Shown: positions 28,438 to 39,607 of the stretch, one piece after another
Position numbering within the stretch: position 1 is the first letter of the stretch
Layout: each line of letters starts with the position of its first letter
Assembly: GCA_944372335.1 (NCBI GenBank)
Contig: CALVYQ010000011.1
Coordinates: 1-39,607 of the forward strand
DNA: 39,607 nt
Origin: an uncultured Clostridia bacterium
GTDB taxonomy: Bacteria; Bacillota; Clostridia; Christensenellales; UBA1242
Reading direction: 5' to 3'
Program-made: the position numbers and the translations under genes
Notes under the pieces: generated by a model
Seen by the model: the letters and a program-made list of their open reading frames with translations, nothing else
Told to the model about the DNA's origin: nothing
Database searches by the model: none

Positions 28438-29109
28438 GTGAAAAAACTTTGCTACTTACAGCGAAAATCAAGAAAGAGACGAGTTATTGTGGCTTTAACT
28501 TTACTAAGTATTTTTCTTGCCTCAATTTTTTTATATATCTTCTGCGTTATCAACCCCGTTATTAAAGAGGCAACAAGAGCCCTCATCTACTCACTCTCCA
28601 CCTCCGCAGTGAGTGATGCCGTCTATGATGTGCTTGCCGAACAGAATGTAAAATATGAGGATATGGTGGAAATAACCTACGATAATAATGGTGATATATC
28701 TTTAATATCAATCGACACTGTTGTTGTAAATAATCTTGCTCGTAGATTTTATCAAGTGGCACAGGTATATCTTGATAGAATGGGAAAAGAGGGAATTGAT
28801 ATAGCTCTCGGCACATTCACAGGACTGCCATTTTTGGTAGGAATAGGTCCGACAGTCAACATAAAAATCGTTCAAATTGGGGCTATGACCTCTTCTTTTA
28901 AAAGTAGTTTTACAAGTGCCGGCATCAATCAAACAAATCACTCACTATATGTAGAACTTCATGCCAGTGTAAGTTTGGTACTTCCAACATATTCTTCAAC
29001 CGTTGACAGTATTACAGAATTTTTAGTGACTGAAAGCGTTATTGTTGGTGATATACCAGATGTCTATCTCGGCTCAGACAACACGATAACTCTTGCCCCA
29101 AGCACATAG
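28438..29109 (+). CDS. yunB: Sporulation protein YunB
   Basis: A 223-residue protein matching YunB, a membrane protein made in the mother cell during sporulation in Bacillus. It has a basic start, one membrane helix (about 18-40), then INPVIKEATRAL, VKYEDMVEITYDNNGDIS, the GTFTGLPFLVGIGPTVNIKI block, the conserved AGINQTNHSLYVEL and a C-terminal TESVIVGDIPDVYLG. The start is GTG at 28438; an in-frame stop lies just upstream, so no earlier start exists. No Shine-Dalgarno sequence is evident, and a CATATATAT stretch lies only 7 bases ahead. Its closeness to spoVAE/spoVAD supports a sporulation role. Confidence 0.88.
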   Translation: MKKLCYLQRKSRKRRVIVALTLLSIFLASIFLYIFCVINPVIKEATRALIYSLSTSAVSDAVYDVLAEQNVKYEDMVEITYDNNGDISLISIDTVVVNNLARRFYQVAQVYLDRMGKEGIDIALGTFTGLPFLVGIGPTVNIKIVQIGAMTSSFKSSFTSAGINQTNHSLYVELHASVSLVLPTYSSTVDSITEFLVTESVIVGDIPDVYLGSDNTITLAPST

Positions 29110-29239: not shown

Positions 29240-29608
29240 TTATTTTTTTGTATGCGAATGGAAGATGAGAGCAAAGATAAAAGCAAAGATAATGGCTGCC
29301 GCAATACCACCAGCAGTCGCAGTTAGCCCACCTGTGAATATTCCAAGAATACCCTGCGATTTAACTGCACCTATTGCCCCTTTCGCAAGTGACGCTCCAA
29401 AGCCGATAATTGGAACATTGATGCCAGCTCCAGCAAAGTCTGAAATATAATCAAACACTCCAATAGCCTCTAAGAAGACACCAACAAGCACAAAAGTGAC
29501 AAGTATGCGTGCGGAAGTTATATTGGTTGTGATAATCAACAGCTCACCAATCATACACACCAGCCCGCCTATTATGAATACCCATAGATAATCAATAAAC
29601 ATCTCCAT
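29240..29608 (-). CDS. spoVAE: Stage V sporulation protein AE
   Basis: A 122-residue membrane protein (126 if the ATG at 29620 is used) of the SpoVAE(b) type, part of the channel that moves calcium dipicolinate into the forming spore. Four membrane helices are visible, with the family blocks IGGLVCMIGELLI, SARILVTFVLVGVFLEAIGV, FAGAGINVPIIGFG, ALIF near the end, and glycine-rich GILGIFTGGL. The first ATG has a site with almost no spacing, while the ATG at 29608 has GGAG six bases upstream and matches the usual N-terminus, so the shorter form is preferred. It lies 50 bases downstream of the spoVAD fragment, the normal order. Confidence 0.9.
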   Translation of the reverse strand: MEMFIDYLWVFIIGGLVCMIGELLIITTNITSARILVTFVLVGVFLEAIGVFDYISDFAGAGINVPIIGFGASLAKGAIGAVKSQGILGIFTGGLTATAGGIAAAIIFAFIFALIFHSHTKK

Positions 29609-29670
29609 AAATATCTCCATTCCTTTTAAAGTTTTTGTAGTACAATTTAAATTTGAAATTTAATATAAAC

Positions 29671-30075
29671 TCACTCCTCATACGCCTCTACCACAACAGC
29701 GTGGCAGACTCCCGGAATGCTCTCGCCTTGCTGTGAGGCAGTGGTGCTGAGTAACGCTCCCGTTGGCATAAAGAGTATTCGCTTATATTGCCCATCTTGT
29801 AATTTTTTCATAATGTAAGAATTAAATACAGTTGCACAGCAACCACAACCAGAGCCTCCGCAAAGAGTGTTTTGGTCACGCCTAAAATACATCTGTCCGC
29901 AATCACTATAATTTAGCCCTAACTTTATGCCGTTGTCTTCCATAAGGTCGATAAGAATTTCACTGCCAAGTTTTCCCAAATCTCCAGTGACGATGAGGTC
30001 ATAATCATCAGGCGTTGTTTTGGTGTTTTCAAAATGTGAAAGTAGTGTCTGTGCACAAGCAGGTGAGATTGTCAA
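29671..30075 (-). pseudogene. spoVAD: spoVAD, 3' fragment interrupted by a mobile element
   Basis: The last 134-140 residues of SpoVAD, a thiolase-fold dipicolinate-binding protein normally about 335-340 residues long. ISPACAQTLLSHFE aligns with the conserved MAPAAADT region, followed by DDYDLIVTGDLG, NYSDCGQMYF, GGSGCGCCATVFN and TGALLSTTASQQGESIP. The apparent TTG start at 30075 is not a true start: the open frame continues only to a stop at 30096, and homology ends near 30076-30087. The other 200 residues are absent and are expected beyond the inserted element. The remaining frame has no damage, so loss is recent or reversible. In its present form it cannot make full-length SpoVAD. Confidence 0.88.
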
Positions 30076-30076
30076 G

Positions 30077-30087
30077 TATGGACCATA
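30077..30087. other. Candidate attachment-site palindrome at the spoVAD junction
   Basis: TATGGACCATA has 5-bp inverted arms around one base and lies exactly where SpoVAD similarity ends and AT-rich element DNA begins. Large serine recombinases cut at a 2-bp core flanked by imperfect inverted arms, so this is the best candidate for the crossover region. The core dinucleotide cannot be fixed without the other end. Confidence 0.4.
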
Positions 30088-30124
30088 AAATTTTTAAAAA
30101 AATATAAATTTACAACCAAATCCA

Positions 30125-30165
30125 CATAAAACAGCCACTTTTTAATCCAAAATGACTATTTTATG
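30125..30165 (-). terminator. 17-bp inverted repeat at the recombinase 3' end
   Basis: Positions 30125-30141 pair with 30149-30165 around a 7-base loop. The DNA arms differ at three places, all C/T transitions. In minus-strand RNA these become G-U pairs, so the RNA stem is unbroken. It overlaps the recombinase stop codon. It may be a terminator for the recombinase operon, or a structured site near the element end. No strong U-run follows, which lowers confidence. Confidence 0.5.
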
Positions 30166-31808
30166 CAGTTTTCGTCTAAATACATACTAATCGCTTCAAA
30201 CTCATCTTGAAAATTAAATTCCACTTCAATATGTTTGTTGTCATATATCAAAATTTTCTTGATGAGTTCATCTGCCATCTCCTTTGTAAGAGATGTAAAA
30301 CCTTTGTATTTAGCAAATGCGGTTATAAATTTATTATTCTCAATTTCGACATTTTTATTTATATTACTACAAATTGCAATCAATTGATTTTCAAGCAAAG
30401 TTATCTTTTGCGTAGCATCATCTCTTCGTTTGAGATAATCATTTTCAGTCATCTCCCCTGCCTTGAACTTTATATACAAGACATTCAAACTCTCTTTAAG
30501 CGATTTGAGTTCGTTGTCTAATTTTATATACTCTTTCTCAATGTTGCTACTTACATTAGAATTTTTTAAATTCACTTTTTGAATTATTTGTTGTATGTTA
30601 ACAGAAATCTCAATATACGATTTTACAATATCAAAAACAAGTTTCTCTAATACATCATTTCTAATTGAGTGTTTTGTGCAAATTTTCCCTTTTGTCATCA
30701 TATATGTTGGACATCTATAATAATACTTTCCTAGTAAACTTTTTTCATTACAAATGCAAGTTTGAAGCACTTTCCCACAATCACCACATCTTACAAGTCC
30801 ACCTAATATATATGTTCGAAAAGGTTTGATGAATTTAGTTTTATTTTCTTCTAACCTTAATCGCACTTTATCAAAATCTTCTCTTGAAATGATTGCTTCG
30901 TGTGTGTTTGGAACTATACACCATTCTTCACTTGATTTCTTTATGATTTTATGATTTCTATAACTAATGGTTGTTCTTGTCCCTTGCACCATATCTCCAA
31001 CATACATTCTATTAGATAATATCCTTTGAACTGCTGACGCAGTCCAAATATGGTATTTACTTTGATTTGGATTTTTATATTTATATCCTTTTGATTTTTT
31101 ATATTCAAATGGAGTTAATATTTCATTGTCATTCAAGAATTTTGCAATCGCGCTTAAACTACTGCCATTTAAAAACATTTTATAAATAATTTTAACGACT
31201 TGACTTGCTTCAGCGTCTACAACAAGTTTATGTCTATCTTCCTTACTTTTCTCATACCCATAGCAAGCAAATGCCCCTATAAACAGCCCTTGTCTCATAT
31301 AAGATTTTTGAGCAGTCTTTACTTTGATAGATAAATCTCTAACATATTCGTCATTCATTATATTTTTAAAAGGCACCAATAGTCCATTTACTGAGTTTGG
31401 GTCAAGAAAGGTATCTACATTATCTAATAGAGAAATAAATCTAACCTTTAAAATAGGAAAGATGACTTCTATATAATTGCTACTTTCTATTGTGTTTCTG
31501 CCAAATCGTGACAAATCCTTTACAATAACACAATCAATGTCCCCTGTCTTAATCTTGGCAAGCATTCTTTGAAAATCAGGTCTATCAAAATTTGTTCCAG
31601 AATATCCATCATCTATATAAAAATCATCAATTTGAATATCAGGATTTTGTGCGACAAATTTATTTAGCAAGGCTCTTTGCGATGAAATACTATCACTTTC
31701 GTTTTTAACTACATCGTCTTCTCTTGAAAGTCTTAAATAAAGCCCTGCTTTCCAAATTTTTTCTTCTTGTATTTTTGCAAGATTGTTGTATCTACTAACT
31801 CGGCTCAT
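30156..31808 (-). CDS. Large serine recombinase 1
   Basis: A 550-residue site-specific recombinase of the large serine (TnpX/phiC31-like) family, which integrates and excises DNA without homology. The N-terminal catalytic domain has YLRLSRED with Ser28, the DDGYSGTNFDRP motif and VKDLSRFGRN with the conserved arginines. The recombinase domain follows (FACYGYEKS, LNDNEILTPFEYK, VQRILSNRMYVGDMVQG). A zinc-ribbon segment has CGDCGKVL near residue 338 with later CPTYMMTKGKIC, and then a coiled coil (about 405-475). AGGTGAG precedes the ATG. It is 7 bases after recombinase 2 and is the gene nearest the spoVAD junction. Confidence 0.95.
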   Translation of the reverse strand: MSRVSRYNNLAKIQEEKIWKAGLYLRLSREDDVVKNESDSISSQRALLNKFVAQNPDIQIDDFYIDDGYSGTNFDRPDFQRMLAKIKTGDIDCVIVKDLSRFGRNTIESSNYIEVIFPILKVRFISLLDNVDTFLDPNSVNGLLVPFKNIMNDEYVRDLSIKVKTAQKSYMRQGLFIGAFACYGYEKSKEDRHKLVVDAEASQVVKIIYKMFLNGSSLSAIAKFLNDNEILTPFEYKKSKGYKYKNPNQSKYHIWTASAVQRILSNRMYVGDMVQGTRTTISYRNHKIIKKSSEEWCIVPNTHEAIISREDFDKVRLRLEENKTKFIKPFRTYILGGLVRCGDCGKVLQTCICNEKSLLGKYYYRCPTYMMTKGKICTKHSIRNDVLEKLVFDIVKSYIEISVNIQQIIQKVNLKNSNVSSNIEKEYIKLDNELKSLKESLNVLYIKFKAGEMTENDYLKRRDDATQKITLLENQLIAICSNINKNVEIENNKFITAFAKYKGFTSLTKEMADELIKKILIYDNKHIEVEFNFQDEFEAISMYLDENCIK

Positions 31809-31815
31809 ATCTCAC

Positions 31816-33507
31816 CTACATAGATAAGGCAATTTGTGCCTGTTGATATTTTTTCTCTTGCATATATACTTGCCTGTTAAATTCAATATATTGAAGTGCA
31901 TTCATATATTCATCTCTAAACTTAACTTCCACTTCAATCTTGCCACCCTCGTATATATAAATATTATTAATGAGCTCGACAACAACATCTCTTGTTAGTT
32001 CTGTTATGTTTTGATATTTTTTAAAGTTTTCAATAAACCTATTTTCAGTCGTTAGGCCATTTTTTATCGCTTCTTTTTGTAATATCAAATTTTCAATAGC
32101 ACTTAAAATCTCTTCTTTCTTCTGTGAGTATTTGTCTTTCATAGAAAGATACATATCCTGCGTGATAAATCCTTTTTTCCAATCTGGATACAAATCTTCA
32201 AGCAGTCTATTTATATCATCTCTTTCTGCATATTTCGATTTTAACATCTTATCAATTTTTGTCGTCTCTTTTGTCCGTTCTTCACTTCTATTTATGAAAT
32301 CAATAAGGTTATCCATCGTTATTGCAATATTTACATACTGCTTTATCACAGCAAAAACCGCTTCCTTGATTTTATCAACTTGAACTGCGTGTTTTGTGCA
32401 CGCTTTGCGTCCAGATTTTTTAAAAGTGCTACAAATATAGTAGTAATATTCTTTGTAAGGCTGATGAATATGCTTTTTATTCATACCACGCCTACAATCT
32501 CCACACTTGCAAAAACCTGACAATAAGTCTAATTGTTTGGTGCTTGTGCAAACTCTTGTATCTCTTGCAAGCAATGATTGCACTTTTTCAAAATCTTCTC
32601 TTGAAATAATTGGTTCGTGTGTGTTTGGCACAATTATTCGTTTGTCTTTATCAACTTTTCGGCAAATTTTAACTTTATAACTAACTATCTCTGCTTGCTT
32701 TTGCACCATATCTCCAACATACATTTGATTTGTTAAGATACGTTTTATTCCAAGTGAATCCCATTTAGGGTTTCCAGTTGTAGAAAAATGTCTATCTTTA
32801 TATCCTTTACTTCTTTTATATTCACTTGGAGTTAAATAATTATTGTCATTCATATAAATTGCTATTGAACGAATTGTGGCGCCTTCTAAAAACATTTTAT
32901 ATATCATTCTTACATTATCAGCAACCTCTTCATCAACAATGAGTTTATGCTTATCATTTGGGTCTTTAATATATCCATAGCAAGCAAATGAACCTATATA
33001 TTGCCCATTTTCTCTTTTAATCGTAAGAGAACTTCTAATCTTCATAGAAATATCACGACAATATTCATCATTGAGCAAGTTTTTAAAAGGAACTATTACA
33101 TTATTTATAGACTGCGGATTTAAAAAACTATCTATTTGGTCATTTATAGCAATAAATCTCACTTTCAACATTGGAAAAACGATTTCGATATACTTACTTG
33201 TTTCAATATGATTTCTTCCAAGTCTTGATAAGTCTTTTACAATAACACAATCAACCTTATTCGCTCTTATGTCATTAAACATTCTTTCAAAACTATCACG
33301 ATTAAAATTTGTGCCTGTATAACCATCGTCTATATACTCATCATAAAGTTTAAGGTCTGGATTTTTCAACAAAAAATTGCGCAACAGCTCTCTTTGAGAT
33401 TTCACGCTCTCACTTTCCATTTTATCACCGTCTTCACGAGATAAACGTATATACAAAGCAGTATTCCAAATCTTACCGCTTACTTTATTTTCAAAAACAT
33501 TTTCCAT
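31816..33507 (-). CDS. Large serine recombinase 2
   Basis: A 563-residue recombinase of the same family as its neighbour but clearly different in sequence, so not a recent duplicate. Catalytic Ser is in YIRLSREDGD (about residue 23 in this numbering), followed by DDGYTGTNFNRDSF, VKDLSRLGRN, FACYGYIKDPNDKHKL and the zinc-ribbon CKCGDCRRG with CSTFKKSGRKAC. A coiled coil precedes a charged C-terminus. Two close ATGs exist (33513 and 33507); the second has GAGGAG at 8 bases and is preferred. It begins the recombinase operon behind a promoter that overlaps an inverted repeat. Two-recombinase systems are known, for example ccrA/ccrB of SCC elements. Confidence 0.94.
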   Translation of the reverse strand: MENVFENKVSGKIWNTALYIRLSREDGDKMESESVKSQRELLRNFLLKNPDLKLYDEYIDDGYTGTNFNRDSFERMFNDIRANKVDCVIVKDLSRLGRNHIETSKYIEIVFPMLKVRFIAINDQIDSFLNPQSINNVIVPFKNLLNDEYCRDISMKIRSSLTIKRENGQYIGSFACYGYIKDPNDKHKLIVDEEVADNVRMIYKMFLEGATIRSIAIYMNDNNYLTPSEYKRSKGYKDRHFSTTGNPKWDSLGIKRILTNQMYVGDMVQKQAEIVSYKVKICRKVDKDKRIIVPNTHEPIISREDFEKVQSLLARDTRVCTSTKQLDLLSGFCKCGDCRRGMNKKHIHQPYKEYYYYICSTFKKSGRKACTKHAVQVDKIKEAVFAVIKQYVNIAITMDNLIDFINRSEERTKETTKIDKMLKSKYAERDDINRLLEDLYPDWKKGFITQDMYLSMKDKYSQKKEEILSAIENLILQKEAIKNGLTTENRFIENFKKYQNITELTRDVVVELINNIYIYEGGKIEVEVKFRDEYMNALQYIEFNRQVYMQEKKYQQAQIALSM

Positions 33508-33530
33508 AAGCATATCTCCTCATAATAAAA

Positions 33531-33595
33531 TTGAGATGATATGCCGTGAATATCTAATACGATATTATTATAACACATCATCTCAAAAATATACA
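33531..33595 (-). promoter_or_regulatory. Recombinase promoter overlapped by a paired inverted repeat
   Basis: On the minus strand TATAAT (33572-33567) with a weak TGTATA 17 bases upstream (33595-33590) forms a likely promoter. TTGAGATGAT occurs at 33531-33540 on the plus strand and in inverted form at 33577-33586, a perfect 10-bp repeat (13 bp with one mismatch). One arm covers the promoter spacer; the other lies in the leader just before the Shine-Dalgarno sequence. The centres of the arms are 46 bases apart. It looks like a pair of repressor sites. Confidence 0.55.
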
Positions 33596-33614
33596 GTGAT
33601 TTTTAAAATTTATT

Positions 33615-33875
33615 TTAATTTCCTATCTTTGCAAGTAAAATTTTTTCCATTTTCTCTTGAAAACTCTTATTTGTGTCAGCAAATTTTACTTTTACAACCA
33701 AATCACCAACCTTAAAAAGATAGGGATTTTTTATCTTTTCAATAAAGTCAATCAACTTTTCGTGTTTACTTTTTGATGTGTCGATATTTATATCTCTAAT
33801 ATCAACCAAACTATTTGTATTACAAGTTTTAAAATCTTGATTTTTCATTTCATTTAATTCATTTAATGTTATCAT
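33615..33875 (-). CDS. DUF6870-like small protein
   Basis: An 86-residue protein resembling the small proteins (DUF6870 type) often found beside serine recombinases in clostridial conjugative elements. The pattern is LVDIRDINIDTSKSKHEKLIDF, then IKNPYLFKVGDLVVKVKF and a leucine-rich helix at the end. The function is not established. ATG 33875 gives the start MITLNELNEMKN; an in-frame TTG at 33896 would add seven residues, and neither has a strong ribosome site. It lies just upstream of the recombinase promoter region on the same strand. Two direct copies of AAAAAGAATTAT (33911 and 33929) lie upstream. Confidence 0.75.
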   Translation of the reverse strand: MITLNELNEMKNQDFKTCNTNSLVDIRDINIDTSKSKHEKLIDFIEKIKNPYLFKVGDLVVKVKFADTNKSFQEKMEKILLAKIGN

Positions 33876-33955
33876 ACTCAAATTTTTGACATACAAAATT
33901 TTTTTATTCCAAAAAGAATTATCGAAATAAAAAGAATTATGTCAAATCCTCCCCA

Positions 33956-34351
33956 TCATAGTTCACTTGCTTTTAAATTTTCTATATCATCTTTAATCTT
34001 TTCAGTTAAATCGTAAACAAGACTTTCTAAATCACCACCTGTGACGTTGGCAAGATTGTTATAACCATCTAACTTGTAAATATCATCACTGTAAGTATCT
34101 GCTACAAAACAGCGAACTCTATCTACCCCATCTTTTGCAGCAGCTTCAAGCCAATAATCTACATCATCATCGTCTAATATATCCGAAATTTCTCTTATAT
34201 CATCATAGTAATCTGTGCTATGTTCTGCGTCAAAATCCTCTATAAGATTCTTTATGTTCTCAAAAACATCTTTCTTGCATTTAGTATCTATATCTTTTAC
34301 TTCTTCTTTCAATAAATTTATTAATTTCTTCCTTGCGTATATTTCATTCAT
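33956..34351 (-). CDS. Acidic hypothetical protein
   Basis: A 131-residue protein with no family recognised. It is very acidic: about 36 Asp/Glu against about 17 Lys/Arg, including a DDDD run near 58-61. The predicted fold is mostly helical. Its start overlaps the end of the DNA methyltransferase gene by 8 bases, so the two are translationally coupled. A DNA-mimic or anti-restriction role, or a partner of the methyltransferase, is possible but is only inferred from charge and position. Confidence 0.7.
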   Translation of the reverse strand: MNEIYARKKLINLLKEEVKDIDTKCKKDVFENIKNLIEDFDAEHSTDYYDDIREISDILDDDDVDYWLEAAAKDGVDRVRCFVADTYSDDIYKLDGYNNLANVTGGDLESLVYDLTEKIKDDIENLKASEL

Positions 34352-35444
34352 TATTGTCTCCTTTTAGATAAGGTATCAATCTTTCTGCTACTCTTTTTAT
34401 CATAAGTGGTGGGACGCTCATTCCACACACATAGGCAATATTATCTAAACTCTCCGACAGAAAGTTAAAATCCTGTGGAAAGGTTGAAATTGACACAATA
34501 TCTTGTTTAGATAAGAATTTTTTATCGCACCACCTTATGTTATTACAATGGGCAGTTATTGTTGGTGCAACCTGATCGTCATAAACAAAACAGTAATTAA
34601 AAAAAGAACTCTTGTTTCTAAGTTTTCTACAAGCGTTCTCTAAATTGCGATCTCCATATTTGGCATTATCAATAAGTTTTTTAAGATTATCTGTTATTCC
34701 TCTTTCGCTTCCATCTTTTGACTTAATTTTACTAAATATAATAGGTCTATAAAGAAAAGACATATTCAGTTTATTCAAATCGACATCTAAGCGTGTCGCA
34801 ATAAAAAATACTCTATGTCTTTTCTGTGGTATTCCTATTTGTTCACCTTTAAGAAGCCAATGTTTTACCTTGTATCCGATATTATGAAAATGTTTATAGA
34901 TATTTTGAACATATCTCCAAGCATTTCCCTTTGTAAGTCCTTCGACATTTTCCATAACAACAAACTTTGGTTTAAGCTTTTTAACAGTTTCTATAAACAC
35001 AAAAGACAAATCGTCTAACGTCTGTTCTTTTTGTCCTTCTCTAAATTTCTTTTTCTTCCCCCAAGTTTTTTCTCGCAAACCTGCCATTGAAAATGTAGTG
35101 CAAGGTGGACTTCCATCAAGTATATCTAACTCAAACAATTCCTTTGGTAAATCTTTATTAGGAATTTTATTGAAATCTCGAATATCCATTACAAAGTTTA
35201 ATTTAGGGTTATGGTTGGCAAGATATATCTCATTCATTCGTTTGTCAATTTCAAGGCAACCAACAACATCATATCCTGCCAACTTATATCCCATAGTGGA
35301 GCCTCCTCCACAAGCAAATGTGCTAAAAACTTTTAGCCCATTGCTTTTCGGATAATCTTTAAAATGCCAATACCAATCATTACTATCTTTTTCTTTATAA
35401 CAATCAAAGTCACTACCAAGCATATCAAACATTGATTGTTGCAT
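34344..35444 (-). CDS. DNA (cytosine-5) methyltransferase, orphan
   Basis: A 366-residue C5-cytosine DNA methyltransferase. Motif I is FSTFACGGGST (40-50), motif IV is GSPPCTTFS with the catalytic Cys115, motif VI is VVMENVEGL, and motif VIII is IPQKRHRVFFIATR. A short target-recognition region (about 225-300) and late motifs IX-X near the C-terminus follow. The first 35 residues (MQQSMFDMLGSDFDCYKEKD) are an extra N-terminal piece. No restriction endonuclease gene adjoins it, so it probably protects the element from host restriction or marks it. The recognition sequence cannot be told. GGGGA lies before the ATG. Confidence 0.93.
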   Translation of the reverse strand: MQQSMFDMLGSDFDCYKEKDSNDWYWHFKDYPKSNGLKVFSTFACGGGSTMGYKLAGYDVVGCLEIDKRMNEIYLANHNPKLNFVMDIRDFNKIPNKDLPKELFELDILDGSPPCTTFSMAGLREKTWGKKKKFREGQKEQTLDDLSFVFIETVKKLKPKFVVMENVEGLTKGNAWRYVQNIYKHFHNIGYKVKHWLLKGEQIGIPQKRHRVFFIATRLDVDLNKLNMSFLYRPIIFSKIKSKDGSERGITDNLKKLIDNAKYGDRNLENACRKLRNKSSFFNYCFVYDDQVAPTITAHCNNIRWCDKKFLSKQDIVSISTFPQDFNFLSESLDNIAYVCGMSVPPLMIKRVAERLIPYLKGDNNE

Positions 35445-35454
35445 AGTAGTCCCC

Positions 35455-36420
35455 TTAACTCATTTCTTCTTCGTTAACTTTTTTCATCGCCCTTTTCACA
35501 ATATTTTCTATGCAAAATTTAAAATTCTCTTCATCTTTGACAAGTGCTTCATTCACATCTTTATAATCAACACTATTATAAGTAAGATATTTAATTTTGT
35601 TTTGTTTGAAAAATTTGATTATATCTTCCGTTGCTTTTTCGCCAGCTTCATCATTATCAAAAGCAGTGATATAAATTTTTTTCTTGTTTAACTCCAAATT
35701 TTTAAACTTAGATAAATTACTCACACTCCCAAGTGCTATTGCATTAGCACCAACACTTTCTAAACTCAAACAATCAAACTCACCTTCGGTAATAAAACAA
35801 AATGGTTTATCATTATATAATGCTTCTTTGTTAAAAATATCAGTATGATGACCTTTTGTTTTATAGTATCTCAACTCATTATTTGATGTATCTATGTTGC
35901 GTGCTGTAAAACCATTTTTTGAAATTGGAATTATAATTGCTTTGAGAGTTTTATCACCAAAATTAAACTCATTGTAGCCTAAATTAAATCTTTTTGCAGT
36001 TTTTTCATCAATTTTTCGATTAAAAAGATAATTTTTTGCACTTTTTTCTTTATCTAAATTTTTAGTCCAAATTTTATATGCTCTTGAATAATCTTTCTCT
36101 TTTTGATTGTTTTCTTTATTTTTTTCTTTTGTGAACTCTTTTATTGTTCTTAAAGTTTGACCCGTTTTATAATATTGCAATGCCCTTTTAAAAGCCTCTT
36201 TGTTATCAACATTTTCAAGTATTGCAATACAATCAAACAAGTTATATGTTTCACCACAACCAAAACAATAAACTTTGTTATCATCATAATATTTCATTGA
36301 AGCATTGCTATCATTGTGATTGGGATTTATACATCGAAACATTCGACTTGTATTTATTCCGTGACTTTCAAGATAATTTCTTAAATTAGATTTGAGATAC
36401 TCATATTCAATATCTTCCAC
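35455..36420 (-). CDS. DnaG-type primase with CHC2 finger and Toprim domain
   Basis: A 321-residue short primase-like protein. The N-terminal CHC2 zinc finger uses Cys and His ligands in FRCINPNHND and CFGCGETYNLFDC (about 28-65). A linker and helical part (about 100-165) lead to a Toprim domain with FITEGEFDCLSLESVGANA (about 207-225), the conserved glutamate, and AFDNDEAG (about 252-259) with the paired aspartates. There is no helicase-binding C-terminal domain. It belongs to the kind encoded by phages and conjugative elements for their own replication. The start is a GTG at 36420, with GAGGAAA at a rather long 11-12 bases. Confidence 0.9.
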   Translation of the reverse strand: MEDIEYEYLKSNLRNYLESHGINTSRMFRCINPNHNDSNASMKYYDDNKVYCFGCGETYNLFDCIAILENVDNKEAFKRALQYYKTGQTLRTIKEFTKEKNKENNQKEKDYSRAYKIWTKNLDKEKSAKNYLFNRKIDEKTAKRFNLGYNEFNFGDKTLKAIIIPISKNGFTARNIDTSNNELRYYKTKGHHTDIFNKEALYNDKPFCFITEGEFDCLSLESVGANAIALGSVSNLSKFKNLELNKKKIYITAFDNDEAGEKATEDIIKFFKQNKIKYLTYNSVDYKDVNEALVKDEENFKFCIENIVKRAMKKVNEEEMS

Positions 36421-36426
36421 AATAAT

Positions 36427-36747
36427 TTACATTTCCTCACTGCTTAATTTCTTGTATCTATCTTGAATATCATAGTAAATAAATTCTCTCAAATCATCTT
36501 GCGTCAAGTCATATTCTGTTTTCATAAATCTATAATACAAATCTTCTACAATTTCTTTTTTTGCAAAATCTCTTCTCATATAACTTTTGCCATAGTTTAC
36601 AAGGAAATTATAAAATTCTTCGTGTGCGTGAATTTGATAAAAACTTTCGTATAATTCTTCTGCTGGAAGTTTTTTCATTTGCATTTTATATTTTTCGTGT
36701 TCTCTATCAAGTTCTCTCACGAACTCTCTATACTCATCTTCTAACAT
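36427..36747 (-). CDS. Small element protein, DUF3848-like
   Basis: A 106-residue helical protein. The pattern EYREFVRELDREHEK, LPAEELYESFYQIHAHEEF and LTQDDLREFIYYDI resembles the DUF3848-type proteins of clostridial mobile elements, a tentative match. The ATG at 36747 has GGAG eight bases upstream and lies one base after the preceding stop. An in-frame start at 36765 is less likely because it sits inside the previous gene. No enzymatic motif is seen. Confidence 0.65.
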   Translation of the reverse strand: MLEDEYREFVRELDREHEKYKMQMKKLPAEELYESFYQIHAHEEFYNFLVNYGKSYMRRDFAKKEIVEDLYYRFMKTEYDLTQDDLREFIYYDIQDRYKKLSSEEM

Positions 36748-36748
36748 A

Positions 36749-37120
36749 TTACATCTCCGAGTCATATTTTTTATTTTTAGATTTTCGGCTATTTGCTTTA
36801 TATTCAGCTATCTCTTTCAAAATTCTTTGTGTGTTTTTGTATTTCTCTTTGTTGTAATATTCTTGCTTTTTGATATATTTATCTAAATCCTTCATATCCT
36901 TTTCTTCAAGTTCATACTTAATGCCACAATCACAAGAGATAAATTGCAATCCGCAAGCGGGACAGCGCTCAATATCGCACATATCTAAATGTTTTTCTCC
37001 AACGTGAACACCGCAATCTCCACAAGTTGGGTTTTCTTCATCTCCTACCCAATCTTCGTCCTCATCACCAAATAGTATTGGATCATAAAGTTTGCCTTTA
37101 ATCAAGTATTTTACCGACAT
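36749..37120 (-). CDS. Zinc-ribbon protein of mobile elements
   Basis: A 123-residue protein with several Cys/His pairs: CGDCGVHVGEKH (33-44) and CDIERCPACGLQFISCDCG (48-66), two probable zinc sites. The acidic N-terminal part (FGDEDEDWVGDEE) and the long charged helix at the C-terminus flank them. Similar CGDCG/CPxCG proteins are frequent in conjugative elements and phages of gut Firmicutes. The function is unknown. AGAGGGA lies before the ATG; it is directly downstream of the YubB-like gene. Confidence 0.7.
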   Translation of the reverse strand: MSVKYLIKGKLYDPILFGDEDEDWVGDEENPTCGDCGVHVGEKHLDMCDIERCPACGLQFISCDCGIKYELEEKDMKDLDKYIKKQEYYNKEKYKNTQRILKEIAEYKANSRKSKNKKYDSEM

Positions 37121-37129
37121 AATTCCCTC

Positions 37130-37903
37130 TTACATTTCTTCATCACACTGATTATATTCATAAGTATGGGTTTTCTTATTAAAAGAATAATATCTTTTAG
37201 AATCAGGCCAAAGTTCAAAACTTTTTTCATAAGCTTCTTTGCTGCCTTCATCAAAAATGATTTCTTTTGTGCAATCACCTTTTTCAAACTCATATTCACC
37301 ACAAAGCACCCAAATTTGCTCCTCAGAAAAATCATATTCAAATAAATTTTCTGGAAACATTGAAGAAAGCTTTCTCATTAATTCTGGAACAGGACTCCAA
37401 GCAGTATCAAATAAAATCACATTATCTTCTATTACTGTTTCGCGAGCATTCCACTTGGTCCCCCAATTTCGAATACTCCAATCATACCAATCCACTACAC
37501 CATAATTTAAAATGTTATCTAGTGCCATTCTTCCATAATCTAAAACAGCTTGTTCGCTATCAAATCTTTTGTTTCCTTTCCAATCTTTTTCTTCTGCAAT
37601 TTCTTTTAATTTCTCTTTAAATTCATCGTCTTTCATTCCGATGTAATTTTCACCAATTGAAACAATAATCGATATATATTTTTTAAACTCATCAGTCTTT
37701 TTAATTGAGTTCAAAAAAAGATTTATATATGTTGGAACTCGTGAAGAAGATTCCATTTTCGCTATACTTTCTGGCATAGGCGTGATTTTGTTAAAATCCA
37801 AAACCACTTTATGTTCTTCGTTGTCAAATGTTGTGATTTGATGTAGAATTTCTTTATATTGTGGACCTCGAATTGTTAGACGATTTCTTACCCAATTTGG
37901 CAT
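37130..37903 (-). CDS. YubB/Api92-like ferredoxin-fold protein (DUF1281 type)
   Basis: A 257-residue protein that begins MPNWVRNRLTIRG, the hallmark of the Api92/YubB ferredoxin-like family carried by plasmids, phages and conjugative elements. VVLDFNKITPMPES is also typical. The middle has YDWSIRNWGTKWNA, matching the conserved W.....WGTKW segment, followed by FDTAWSPVPELMRKLS. No catalytic residues are known for the family and the role is not established. GGAGGGA precedes the ATG at 37903. Confidence 0.85.
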   Translation of the reverse strand: MPNWVRNRLTIRGPQYKEILHQITTFDNEEHKVVLDFNKITPMPESIAKMESSSRVPTYINLFLNSIKKTDEFKKYISIIVSIGENYIGMKDDEFKEKLKEIAEEKDWKGNKRFDSEQAVLDYGRMALDNILNYGVVDWYDWSIRNWGTKWNARETVIEDNVILFDTAWSPVPELMRKLSSMFPENLFEYDFSEEQIWVLCGEYEFEKGDCTKEIIFDEGSKEAYEKSFELWPDSKRYYSFNKKTHTYEYNQCDEEM

Positions 37904-37912
37904 AATTCCCTC

Positions 37913-38434
37913 CTACATTTCTTCTTGTGCTTGTCGCTTCTTCTCTGCTTGTAAAGTTGCTTCTGTCCAAAATCCGTAAAAATCTTTTGGTCGTTTTATC
38001 CCTAATTGCTTATATTCTTTATCTAACCCTTTTTGCACTTCTTTGAAATCATCAAATGGATATTCAGCATATATCCATTTGTCTTTATCGTTAAATATAT
38101 AGATATACTCAATCCAACCCCATTTTTTAAGTTCTTTTAAAGAACAGATACTTGCTTCTTGGTCAGTTTCTCCCCTATCTCTTCCATAAGCAACCACAAC
38201 ATCATCTTGTCTTTGACTATAATCAAATGAATGTGGTTTACTTGGATCTGGATTAACCTTTTCACATAAACAAGAGATATTCCCAAGATTCAAAAGTTCT
38301 TCAACTTTTTCTCTATCTTTATAATGGTCAATAAGCATTGCGCCATTATAGGTTAAATAACCATCACTATGACAATAAATCGCTTTATATTTATCGTCAC
38401 CAATCTTTTCACAAATCAAACTTCTTGTTGACAT
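37913..38434 (-). CDS. Conserved mobile-element protein of unknown function
   Basis: A 173-residue protein beginning MSTRSLICEKIGDDKYKAIYCHSDGYL, a pattern frequent in plasmid and conjugative-element proteins of Firmicutes. The middle contains YGRDRGETDQEAS and the WGWIEYIYIFNDKDKW strand pair. The C-terminus is a charged helix rich in Gln and Glu. No enzymatic motif is recognised. Its Shine-Dalgarno site is part of a run of seven G (38439-38445) that overlaps the stop codon of the upstream gene. Confidence 0.7.
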   Translation of the reverse strand: MSTRSLICEKIGDDKYKAIYCHSDGYLTYNGAMLIDHYKDREKVEELLNLGNISCLCEKVNPDPSKPHSFDYSQRQDDVVVAYGRDRGETDQEASICSLKELKKWGWIEYIYIFNDKDKWIYAEYPFDDFKEVQKGLDKEYKQLGIKRPKDFYGFWTEATLQAEKKRQAQEEM

Positions 38435-38444
38435 AAATCCCCCC

Positions 38445-39341
38445 CTAAATTAACCTATATTTTCCTGCATATAAATTCCACGGTTCTGTATTTAGATAAT
38501 AATCTAATAACTCTTGATAAACATAAATTGACTCCAAGTTAGGACATCTTGAAAACGGTTGATAAGAAGTAGTAAAATTTGCTGACACCTCATTCTTTGA
38601 TAGGAATGTCACCTGTTTTAAGTTATCACAACCATTAAATGTGCCAAGAGTCATCTTTTTTAGACTTGATGATAACTCAACTTCTTCAAGATTTTTGCAA
38701 TTAAAAAAAGCATAAGGATCTATTTGTTCGACTGTGCTAGGCAAAATTAGCGACTTTATATTTGTTCCCCAAAATGCACTGTCACCTATTCTTTTAAGTC
38801 CCTCACTGAATTCTATTATTTCTAAATTTGAACAATCTCTAAAAGCAAACAATTCTATTGTTTCTATTGTTTTTGGTAAAATGACTTGTTTTATTTTTTT
38901 ATTGTTTTGAAAAACACTATTTGAAATACTTGTTATTTTTACATCTCTTCCTTCAATAAAAGTAGGTGTATCTATTGAGTATTCATAAGTCCAAGGATAT
39001 AATTGATTATATATCATTTCATAAAAATCATAATATCCATTAGCTCCAGTGGTATAATGTTCTTGTAAAAATTGAAAAGCCTCTGCTCTATCATTAAATG
39101 TAATAATTCCACTATAATTTTCAGTATCACCAAATGAATATGAACTTGGAATTTCTACTATTTCTTTATCACCATTATACTCAACTATTTTGCTTCCATT
39201 AAATACAAATCCTTCAACGGATATTAATGGCTCTTGTTTTTCAAAACTAACTCTTTGGGTAAGTGCAAATATAAAAAGTATTAAAACTCCAATAATTAAA
39301 AACAAAACTCCCCAAGATATTGTTGATTTGCTTTTACTCAT
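38445..39341 (-). CDS. BspA-type leucine-rich-repeat membrane protein
   Basis: A 298-residue protein with one N-terminal membrane helix (about 10-28) and an extracellular part. After a spacer (30-130), it has about five LRR_5/BspA repeats (about 130-270), seen as ITSISNSVFQNNKKIKQVILP, IETIELFAFRDCSNLEIIEF, LKRIGDSAFWGTNIKSLILP and VEQIDPYAFFNCKNLEEVELSS. Such repeats form surface adhesin or binding scaffolds. As cargo of a mobile element it may act in surface recognition or exclusion, but nothing shows the partner. The start overlaps the previous gene's stop as ATGA. Confidence 0.85.
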   Translation of the reverse strand: MSKSKSTISWGVLFLIIGVLILFIFALTQRVSFEKQEPLISVEGFVFNGSKIVEYNGDKEIVEIPSSYSFGDTENYSGIITFNDRAEAFQFLQEHYTTGANGYYDFYEMIYNQLYPWTYEYSIDTPTFIEGRDVKITSISNSVFQNNKKIKQVILPKTIETIELFAFRDCSNLEIIEFSEGLKRIGDSAFWGTNIKSLILPSTVEQIDPYAFFNCKNLEEVELSSSLKKMTLGTFNGCDNLKQVTFLSKNEVSANFTTSYQPFSRCPNLESIYVYQELLDYYLNTEPWNLYAGKYRLI

Positions 39342-39598
39342 AAGTAGTTTTCTTCCTGTTTAAGCAATGTGTCAAACAAAAAATCATAACTATGTTCACT
39401 TCGTTCCTTCATTTCACCAATCATTTCTTTTAAAGTAGTAAATTCAAATACACCCATACATTCTATGAGTTCATCATTTTGGTCTGTAATATCAAAAGCA
39501 TAGTATTGTGGAATACCACGAAGCCATCTATCATATTCTTCAACTTCTGTTTCAATTAAAGCGCGACAAGTATCATAACTTCCAATATCGTCTGCCAT
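39338..39598 (-). CDS. Small hypothetical element protein
   Basis: An 86-residue protein with a mildly acidic composition, LIETEVEEYDRWLRGIPQYYAF near the N-terminus and IECMGVFEFTTLKEMIGEMKE in the middle. No family is recognised with certainty; the IPQYYAFDI-type strand is common among small proteins of conjugative elements. The ATG at 39598 is complete, but the window ends nine bases upstream, so its ribosome site cannot be checked. Translationally coupled to the leucine-rich-repeat gene by a 4-base overlap. Confidence 0.6.
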   Translation of the reverse strand: MADDIGSYDTCRALIETEVEEYDRWLRGIPQYYAFDITDQNDELIECMGVFEFTTLKEMIGEMKERSEHSYDFLFDTLLKQEENYL

Positions 39599-39607
39599 AT
39601 TGTGTTC

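Follow-up and report, generated by a model that had tools for sequence, protein, structure and literature searches.

Programmed rearrangements in spore-forming bacteria have been described for mother-cell genes, that is, in a cell that dies. The gin element of Bacillus cereus ATCC10987, described as 28.6 kb long with three serine recombinases and no phage genes, splits the mother-cell gene gerE, and its rearrangement in sporulation was demonstrated (PMC5595907). Excision of SP-beta is reported to be confined to the mother cell, the spore genome retaining the element, and the other cases named in that account are mother-cell genes as well (PMC4191935). For yin, integrated and excised forms were reported to coexist in culture (PMC10747680), circular forms are described for Tn4451, Tn5397 and CTn-type integrative and conjugative elements (ICEs) (PMC3158075), and excision of ICEKp1 is described as changing the promoter that drives element genes, a 3'-end promoter being brought to int (PMC13023037). 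Here we analyze a 39,607-nucleotide stretch of DNA (the window) from an uncultured Clostridia bacterium of the UBA1242 lineage, in which DNA bearing serine recombinases interrupts the sporulation gene spoVAD. Spores need this gene for loading their protective acid. The window is contig C11 (CALVYQ010000011.1) of assembly G000 (GCA_944372335.1; 1.2 Mb, 14 contigs, 85% complete); G, C and L numbers are our handles for genomes, contigs and loci.

The window contains only the C-terminal part of SpoVAD, from codon 205 onward in the numbering of the intact gene of G020. This part occupies 29671..30063 on the minus strand, from the Pro codon of a Met-Ala-Pro triplet to the stop, within an open frame at 29671-30075, and it matches PF07451 over profile positions 201-329 (E 7.8e-52). 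It is followed by spoVAE (29240..29620, minus; PF03862, 5.3e-30) and a yunB-like sporulation gene (28438..29109, plus; PF09560, 4.5e-26), and two tandem large serine recombinases adjoin its opposite side. The missing N-terminal part, 204 codons, lies on another contig of the same assembly (C6:17590-18231, minus), where it enters foreign DNA at the same Met-Ala-Pro codons; its PF07451 match (3-229) includes two stops and its tail is element DNA. Joined, the two parts give SpoVAD without a gap, the C-part being an ungapped continuation of the N-part, and spoVAC lies at C6:24001-24354, with spoVAE in the window. The first-pass annotation, made from the window alone, had proposed that a serine-recombinase element interrupts spoVAD, with the remaining codons in frame and in their normal place before spoVAE, and had suggested looking for the 5' part; the location of that part on C6 bears the proposal out. 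It had placed the end of SpoVAD similarity at 30,076-30,087. That end is indeed abrupt, and the position shifts by 13-24 bp, to the Pro codon at 30063-30061 where host similarity starts, the bases between being the arm of the right attachment site (attR). The residues ACAQ that follow the join are unusual in the genus, and we rejected them as a sign of damage because the intact gene of a sister genome (G037) carries them too. The start of C6 does not overlap either end of C11, so the middle of this element lies elsewhere; the halves are on separate contigs here, and we infer that they are joined through one element.

The same cut recurs. PF07451 was matched in 110 of 112 genomes of the genus (2 gave no match): 92 of the matches run the full length, 11 break off at profile position 200-206 (G000, G011, G022, G025, G028, G030, G049, G059, G103, G113 and G130) and 7 are truncated elsewhere; in 6 of these 7 the cut is a contig end (G110 was outside that check). 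The earlier annotation had named a second intact copy as something that would speak against its proposal, and none was found in G000 or in any of the other split genomes of the genus, some of which are incomplete. The attR arm motif (at most 1 mismatch) occurred in 8 of the 112 genomes, every time at the spoVAD C-part, and a reversed control pattern occurred in none. Beyond the genus, in other families of Clostridia, the same cut was seen in the N-half of G066 and in one or both halves of G153-G162. In G153 (HAN096) a single contig of 237,429 bases carries spoVAC, spoVAD-N, an element of ~24.7 kb, spoVAD-C and spoVAE in one order and on one strand. It is hardly credible, then, that unrelated contigs ended in spoVAD by chance through faulty assembly or binning: the G000 halves do lie on different contigs, and G161 (an intact spoVAD plus two C-halves of different sequence) and G156 (two C-halves) are probably mixed bins, which is the simple reading of their copy numbers, but the same cut and arms are found in many assemblies, and in G153 such an artefact is excluded as far as the contig is sound.

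The junctions point to site-specific recombination. Left (attL) and right sites share a short core in 13/13 pairs: in all 13 elements with both arms, attL and attR are identical at the CC of the Pro codon and at one C two bases earlier. CC, in the crossover codon CCT (30061..30063, minus), is thus the putative crossover dinucleotide. The arms of the implied element site (attP) are inverted repeats, read by eye; in G000 the outer attR arm ATGGTCC (30080..30086, minus) and the GGACCAT of the attL arm are inverted repeats of each other. A set of large serine recombinase domains adjoins the attachment site, and exit of the element would restore spoVAD exactly and in frame. We therefore favor, at a probability of roughly 80% for the explanation as a whole, a family of elements that integrate site-specifically, their large serine recombinases taking the Met-Ala-Pro codons of spoVAD for the bacterial attachment site (attB), and that excise often enough for SpoVAD to function at sporulation.

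Recombinase B (550 aa; 30156..31808, minus) has the domains PF00239, PF07508 and PF13408, and its closest solved chains are the SP-beta integrase YokA and TnpX. Recombinase A (565 aa; 31816..33513, minus) has these three and PF14287. In a tree of 90 of the 333 distinct recombinase open reading frames (ORFs), the 17 labelled as spoVAD-adjacent (L121 excluded) fell into one clade of 30 with support 0.74, A and B forming two branches; of its 13 unlabelled members, at least two are also linked to spoVAD (L083, from the G130 element, and L090, with a C-half in its genome). Upstream of recombinase A, at 33530..33586 (minus), TGTTATAAT and the palindrome TTGAGATGAT...ATCATCTCAA are kept in G000, G130 and an IMG/VR contig. 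By eye, we read TGTTATAAT as an extended -10 of sigma-A type; the palindrome overlaps this presumed promoter and is perhaps the operator of an element repressor. Next comes a DUF6870 protein (33615..33896, minus; PF21757, 2.9e-28), a candidate recombination accessory or directionality factor, with matches in 24 of the 27 element loci searched (4 of these loci being repeat retrievals of a single contig).

Integration also appears to divide a promoter. Joining the attR arm to the attL arm gives an implied attP in which TTGACA (30070..30075, minus) and TATAAT (C6:17605-17600, minus) stand 17 bp apart, on opposite sides of the crossover. The arrangement is perfect in 9 of the 13 elements (G000, G030, G103, G059, G028, G130, G153, G154 and G156, the last paired with the attR of contig C43; its other attR likewise has TTGACA there), and 11 of the 12 promoter letters are present in G155 and G160, 9 in G162 and 8 in G157. 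Maximal scores over the 12 letters were 8 in attB, 9 in attL and 11 in attR (the 11 with a 15-bp spacer). When element DNA was joined at random, 2 of 200,000 joins gave a perfect match, and TTGACA-17-TATAAT occurs 34 times in 2.17 Mb of sequence, both strands counted. From these sequences we infer that integration splits a putative sigma-A type promoter and that excision reassembles it. A promoter at the circle junction is a feature of Tn4451. The one predicted here would be directed across the core toward the left-end genes, namely a Bro-N gene and then a bacteriophage exclusion (BREX) set in G000 and, in G153 and G156, a small protein that matches no Pfam family; the first left-end gene is codirectional with spoVAD in G000, G130, G153, G156, G160 and G066, opposite in G155 and G157, and of unclear direction in G162. 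On the attL side of G066, the only side available for that element, parA-parB (L046, 6267-8049) directly follows attL, downstream of the -10 half. The Bro-N genes of G000 and G130 (L053 1748-2584, L003 16610-17446) are 96% identical, with a synonymous divergence (dS) of 0.18, despite recombinases A that differ at a dS of 1.7, far above that of Bro-N, so the left end has been exchanged between elements.

Contig ends carry possible traces of excision. In G113, assuming arms like those of G130, the N contig stops and the C contig begins at bases that filled and empty sites have in common; in G049 the contig break fits likewise, assuming arms like those of G000; and in G072, from another family, one contig spans an empty site and another starts at the core. 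In the remaining 9 split genomes of the genus the contigs do not break at the shared bases. These observations suggest that empty and filled sites coexist in the three assemblies, through excision or a mixture of strains. L083 stops at the last base common to attR and attP, which would also be seen with two hosts that differ at the wobble base following it. A common contig start of G028, G059 and G011 at one element base was considered as evidence of a circle and dropped, the distance not fitting G028. In the mechanism we propose, the recombinases, helped by a directionality factor for which DUF6870 is the candidate, would excise the element as a circle, frequently enough for a working spoVAD to be at hand when spores form. 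The same crossover would bring TTGACA and TATAAT to 17 bp apart and turn on the promoter that reads into the left-end genes; reintegration would turn it off. Cells with the integrated element would be SpoVAD-minus until it leaves, and to persist, the circle would have to be carried in the spore or pass to another cell.

The strongest indication that the gene is rebuilt comes from a pair of species, G153 and G154. Their loci are colinear over 7.9 kb (85%) spanning the left flank and the adjoining end of the element, and over 8.6 kb (83%) spanning its other end and the right flank, a comparison that leaves out the middle 11 kb of the element. Element genes differ at a dS of 0.49-1.17 (recombinase, 1.05) and flanking host genes at 0.75-1.98 (sigF-like, 0.98; spoVAC, 1.00); the two recombinases are sisters, 84% identical, with 40% and 43% identity to the query. 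Because element divergence matches that of host genes, the insertion most likely predates the split of the two species. Over that time both halves have been constrained like their intact neighbors, with dN/dS ratios of 0.039-0.060 for spoVAD-N and 0.042-0.044 for spoVAD-C, compared with 0.029 for spoVAC, 0.026 for spoVAE and 0.067 for the sigF-like gene. Only 17 of 325 SpoVAD residues differ; in 1000 crude neutral simulations at that distance, no run had fewer than 236 differences or was free of stops. Four ORFs with ratios >1 in this comparison were taken as spurious, since they lie opposite longer genes on the other strand or in frames that overlap. A gene long split with both parts under such constraint speaks for regular reconstitution, which is the simplest reading of these sequences. 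The same constraint would also be explained if the halves acted as separate polypeptides and excision were unnecessary, and the C-half frame does start with a TTG in the attR arm. We consider this very improbable, as the cut falls within a conserved motif, the N-half acquires an element-encoded tail, and 92 of the 112 genus genomes keep one chain.

Across the split genes, the frames of 17 N-halves and 23 C-halves stay open for almost their whole length; extraction took stop-free frames, so it is the coverage that informs. For most species pairs dN/dS says little about insertion age, dS being saturated or far above that of the element, and the two C-halves of G156 (36 synonymous and 0 nonsynonymous differences) were rejected as a vertical pair because they lie beside different elements in one bin. 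Element genes of G000 and G030 differ at a dS of 0.03-0.18 and host genes at one of at least 1.2; the recombinases of L092 and L093 differ at 0.009, with 84.5 nonsynonymous changes in 125 codons between the host spoVAD C-halves. These two insertions look young and horizontally spread, and since they are recent, their lack of decay may mean youth only. Such spread would fit a plain disruption of spoVAD, with the element excising for transfer only and its carriers forming poor spores or none. That account we regard as unlikely, because the halves in G153 and G154 have stayed constrained since before the species split; the base-exact contig breaks, which suggest empty sites in the same populations, also stand against it.

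Other points besides these young insertions weigh against an element that regularly rebuilds spoVAD and carries a divided promoter. Both halves are present in 8 of the 11 split genomes of the genus, on different contigs each time, and the selection argument rests on one species pair. The 9 perfect promoter cases come from about five lineages and are not independent, G157 and G162 are without the promoter, and its hexamers lie within symmetric recombinase arms, so that recognition by the recombinase alone could conserve part of them. The viral contigs scanned yielded no attP by exact or gapped pattern, and the only conjugation genes seen are those of G030, from a contig with no link between its far end and attR.

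If spoVAD is rebuilt, the cell in which this happens matters. In C. difficile the gene is listed under the sigma-G (forespore) regulon (PMC3789822), so the concern of the first-pass annotation that excision would touch the spore genome is a real one. A spore made with SpoVAD would need an element-free chromosome, and confinement to the mother cell, as described for SP-beta, could not serve a forespore gene. Excision might be timed to sporulation, with sigma-G read-through of the spoVA operon via the N-part into the left-end genes as the trigger, and with the circle kept in the spore and re-integrating after germination. Membership of spoVAD in the C. difficile regulon, strong selection on the long-split gene of G153 and G154, retention of spo0A and spoIVA in all 11 split genomes of the genus, the codirectional first left-end gene in six elements and parA-parB at the left end in G066 are in line with this; the recombinase promoter, however, looks sigma-A type by eye, the first left-end ORFs are reversed in G155 and G157, and SP-beta is described as acting in the mother cell only. 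A simple pattern scan gave no sigma-G/F/E/K-like site before recombinase A (three elements) or DUF6870, and since it gave none upstream of spoVAC in any of four genomes, its outcome carries no weight either way. On balance we hold forespore timing to be possible, though on the unlikely side. Somewhat more doubtful is a full forespore switch, in which the element would leave the spore-bound chromosome, spoVAD would be rebuilt, the same crossover would assemble the sigma-A promoter of the circle and so turn on left-end genes, in G066 the partition genes, and the episome would stay in the spore until re-integration at germination.

Beyond the recombinases and DUF6870, the window continues with an element backbone (33956..39598, minus) that forms a block shared with G030: an unknown ORF, a C5 DNA methylase, a Toprim/primase-like protein, a weak DUF3848 match, DUF1281_C, a BspA-type leucine-rich repeat protein and small ORFs. 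The cargo differs between elements. G000 carries BrxA, BrxB, BrxC, PglX, a PDC-S20-type ATPase, PglZ and BrxL (C6:693-15557), which make up the BREX set; G030, with the right-end block in common, carries PDC-M33 genes, a DrmD-like helicase and a type III restriction-modification system. Its attL contig also has a LexA-like S24 protein and, 33-45 kb from attL, a coupling protein (PF02534, 1.1e-50) and a TraG/VirB4-like ATPase (PF19044, 5.1e-15), and the whole contig end appears to belong to the element. Neither of the latter two proteins was seen on the G000 pieces or among the G153 genes examined. G153 has an aldose epimerase, one recombinase and DUF6870, with other sugar genes named from ORF starts by eye. 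No phage genes were noted among the ORFs examined, although no phage-specific library was searched. In the studied genus the element is probably an ICE with swappable defence cargo. Matches in plasmid and phage records were all below 60% identity.

Further sequences touch the spoVA operon or the element. Between spoVAC and spoVAD-N of G000 lies a region of ~5.6 kb (C6:18339-23962) with five ORFs, one macro-domain-like by eye; G028 and G059 have one other gene each at this place, a second insertion spot in the operon. L067 (IMGVR_UViG_3300023371_002967), a 4.5-kb contig filed as viral, holds an element right end and a spoVAD C-part, its ORFs encoding recombinases and a DUF6870-like protein. L083 (CASDOW010000055.1) and L086 (titled Phocaeicola) are element contigs in genomes without a PF07451 match, a probable misbinning. 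G093 (C3:28997-30172) has SpoVAD matches 2-174 and 174-329 in a single open frame (477 aa), apparently with an insertion that keeps the frame near position 174. In G163 it is spoVAC that is apparently split, beside three serine recombinases and DUF6870 (L121 10900-11260, C18:431-712, C2:17195-17332); its N-part ends in ...SPAMEFQS, its C-part restarts with ...AEGRILGTGAKLF, and C3 holds a second PF03862 match of full length. The operon thus seems to be targeted at two genes, spoVAD and, in G163, spoVAC.

Recurrent, exact and, in one lineage, long-maintained interruption of a forespore gene makes testable whether such rearrangement acts on a heritable genome, how the element survives, and whether the ability of particular gut Clostridia to form durable spores is under its control. 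The forespore switch, if true, would be the spore-genome counterpart of the mother-cell rearrangements. The divided promoter would report the excised state, and recombinases with one conserved target are possible genome tools for uncultured Clostridia. In agreement with the view of the first-pass annotation that no interruption of this type was known, a literature search without most subscription papers gave no spoVAD target; one source mentions the gene as island cargo and not as a target (PMC6907783).

Compared with described systems, the spoVAD element acts in the manner of gin, skin and SP-beta: it splits a sporulation gene and would, on excision, rebuild it. It resembles gin, as that element is described, in its short shared core and inverted repeats (PMC5595907), but it recurs across many Clostridia with defence or sugar cargo, and its excision is predicted from sequence. 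With skin in sigK and SP-beta in spsM it would share exact gene reconstruction by a recombinase (PMC4191935); its target, however, belongs to the sigma-G regulon, as listed for C. difficile, and not to the mother cell. yin in yabG of Clostridium botulinum likewise splits a clostridial sporulation gene but is described as a prophage of one strain in another gene (PMC10747680). Tn4451/TnpX, Tn5397/TndX and the CTn-type ICEs have related large serine recombinases (TnpX, 1.7e-25; TndX, 32%), whereas here the target is spoVAD and the predicted joint promoter reads into the left-end genes, not into a recombinase. In ICEKp1 a promoter is moved; here the crossover lies between the two hexamers of a single predicted promoter. 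The new points are these promoter halves, which the circle would assemble, and the split gene of G153 and G154, long maintained under selection.

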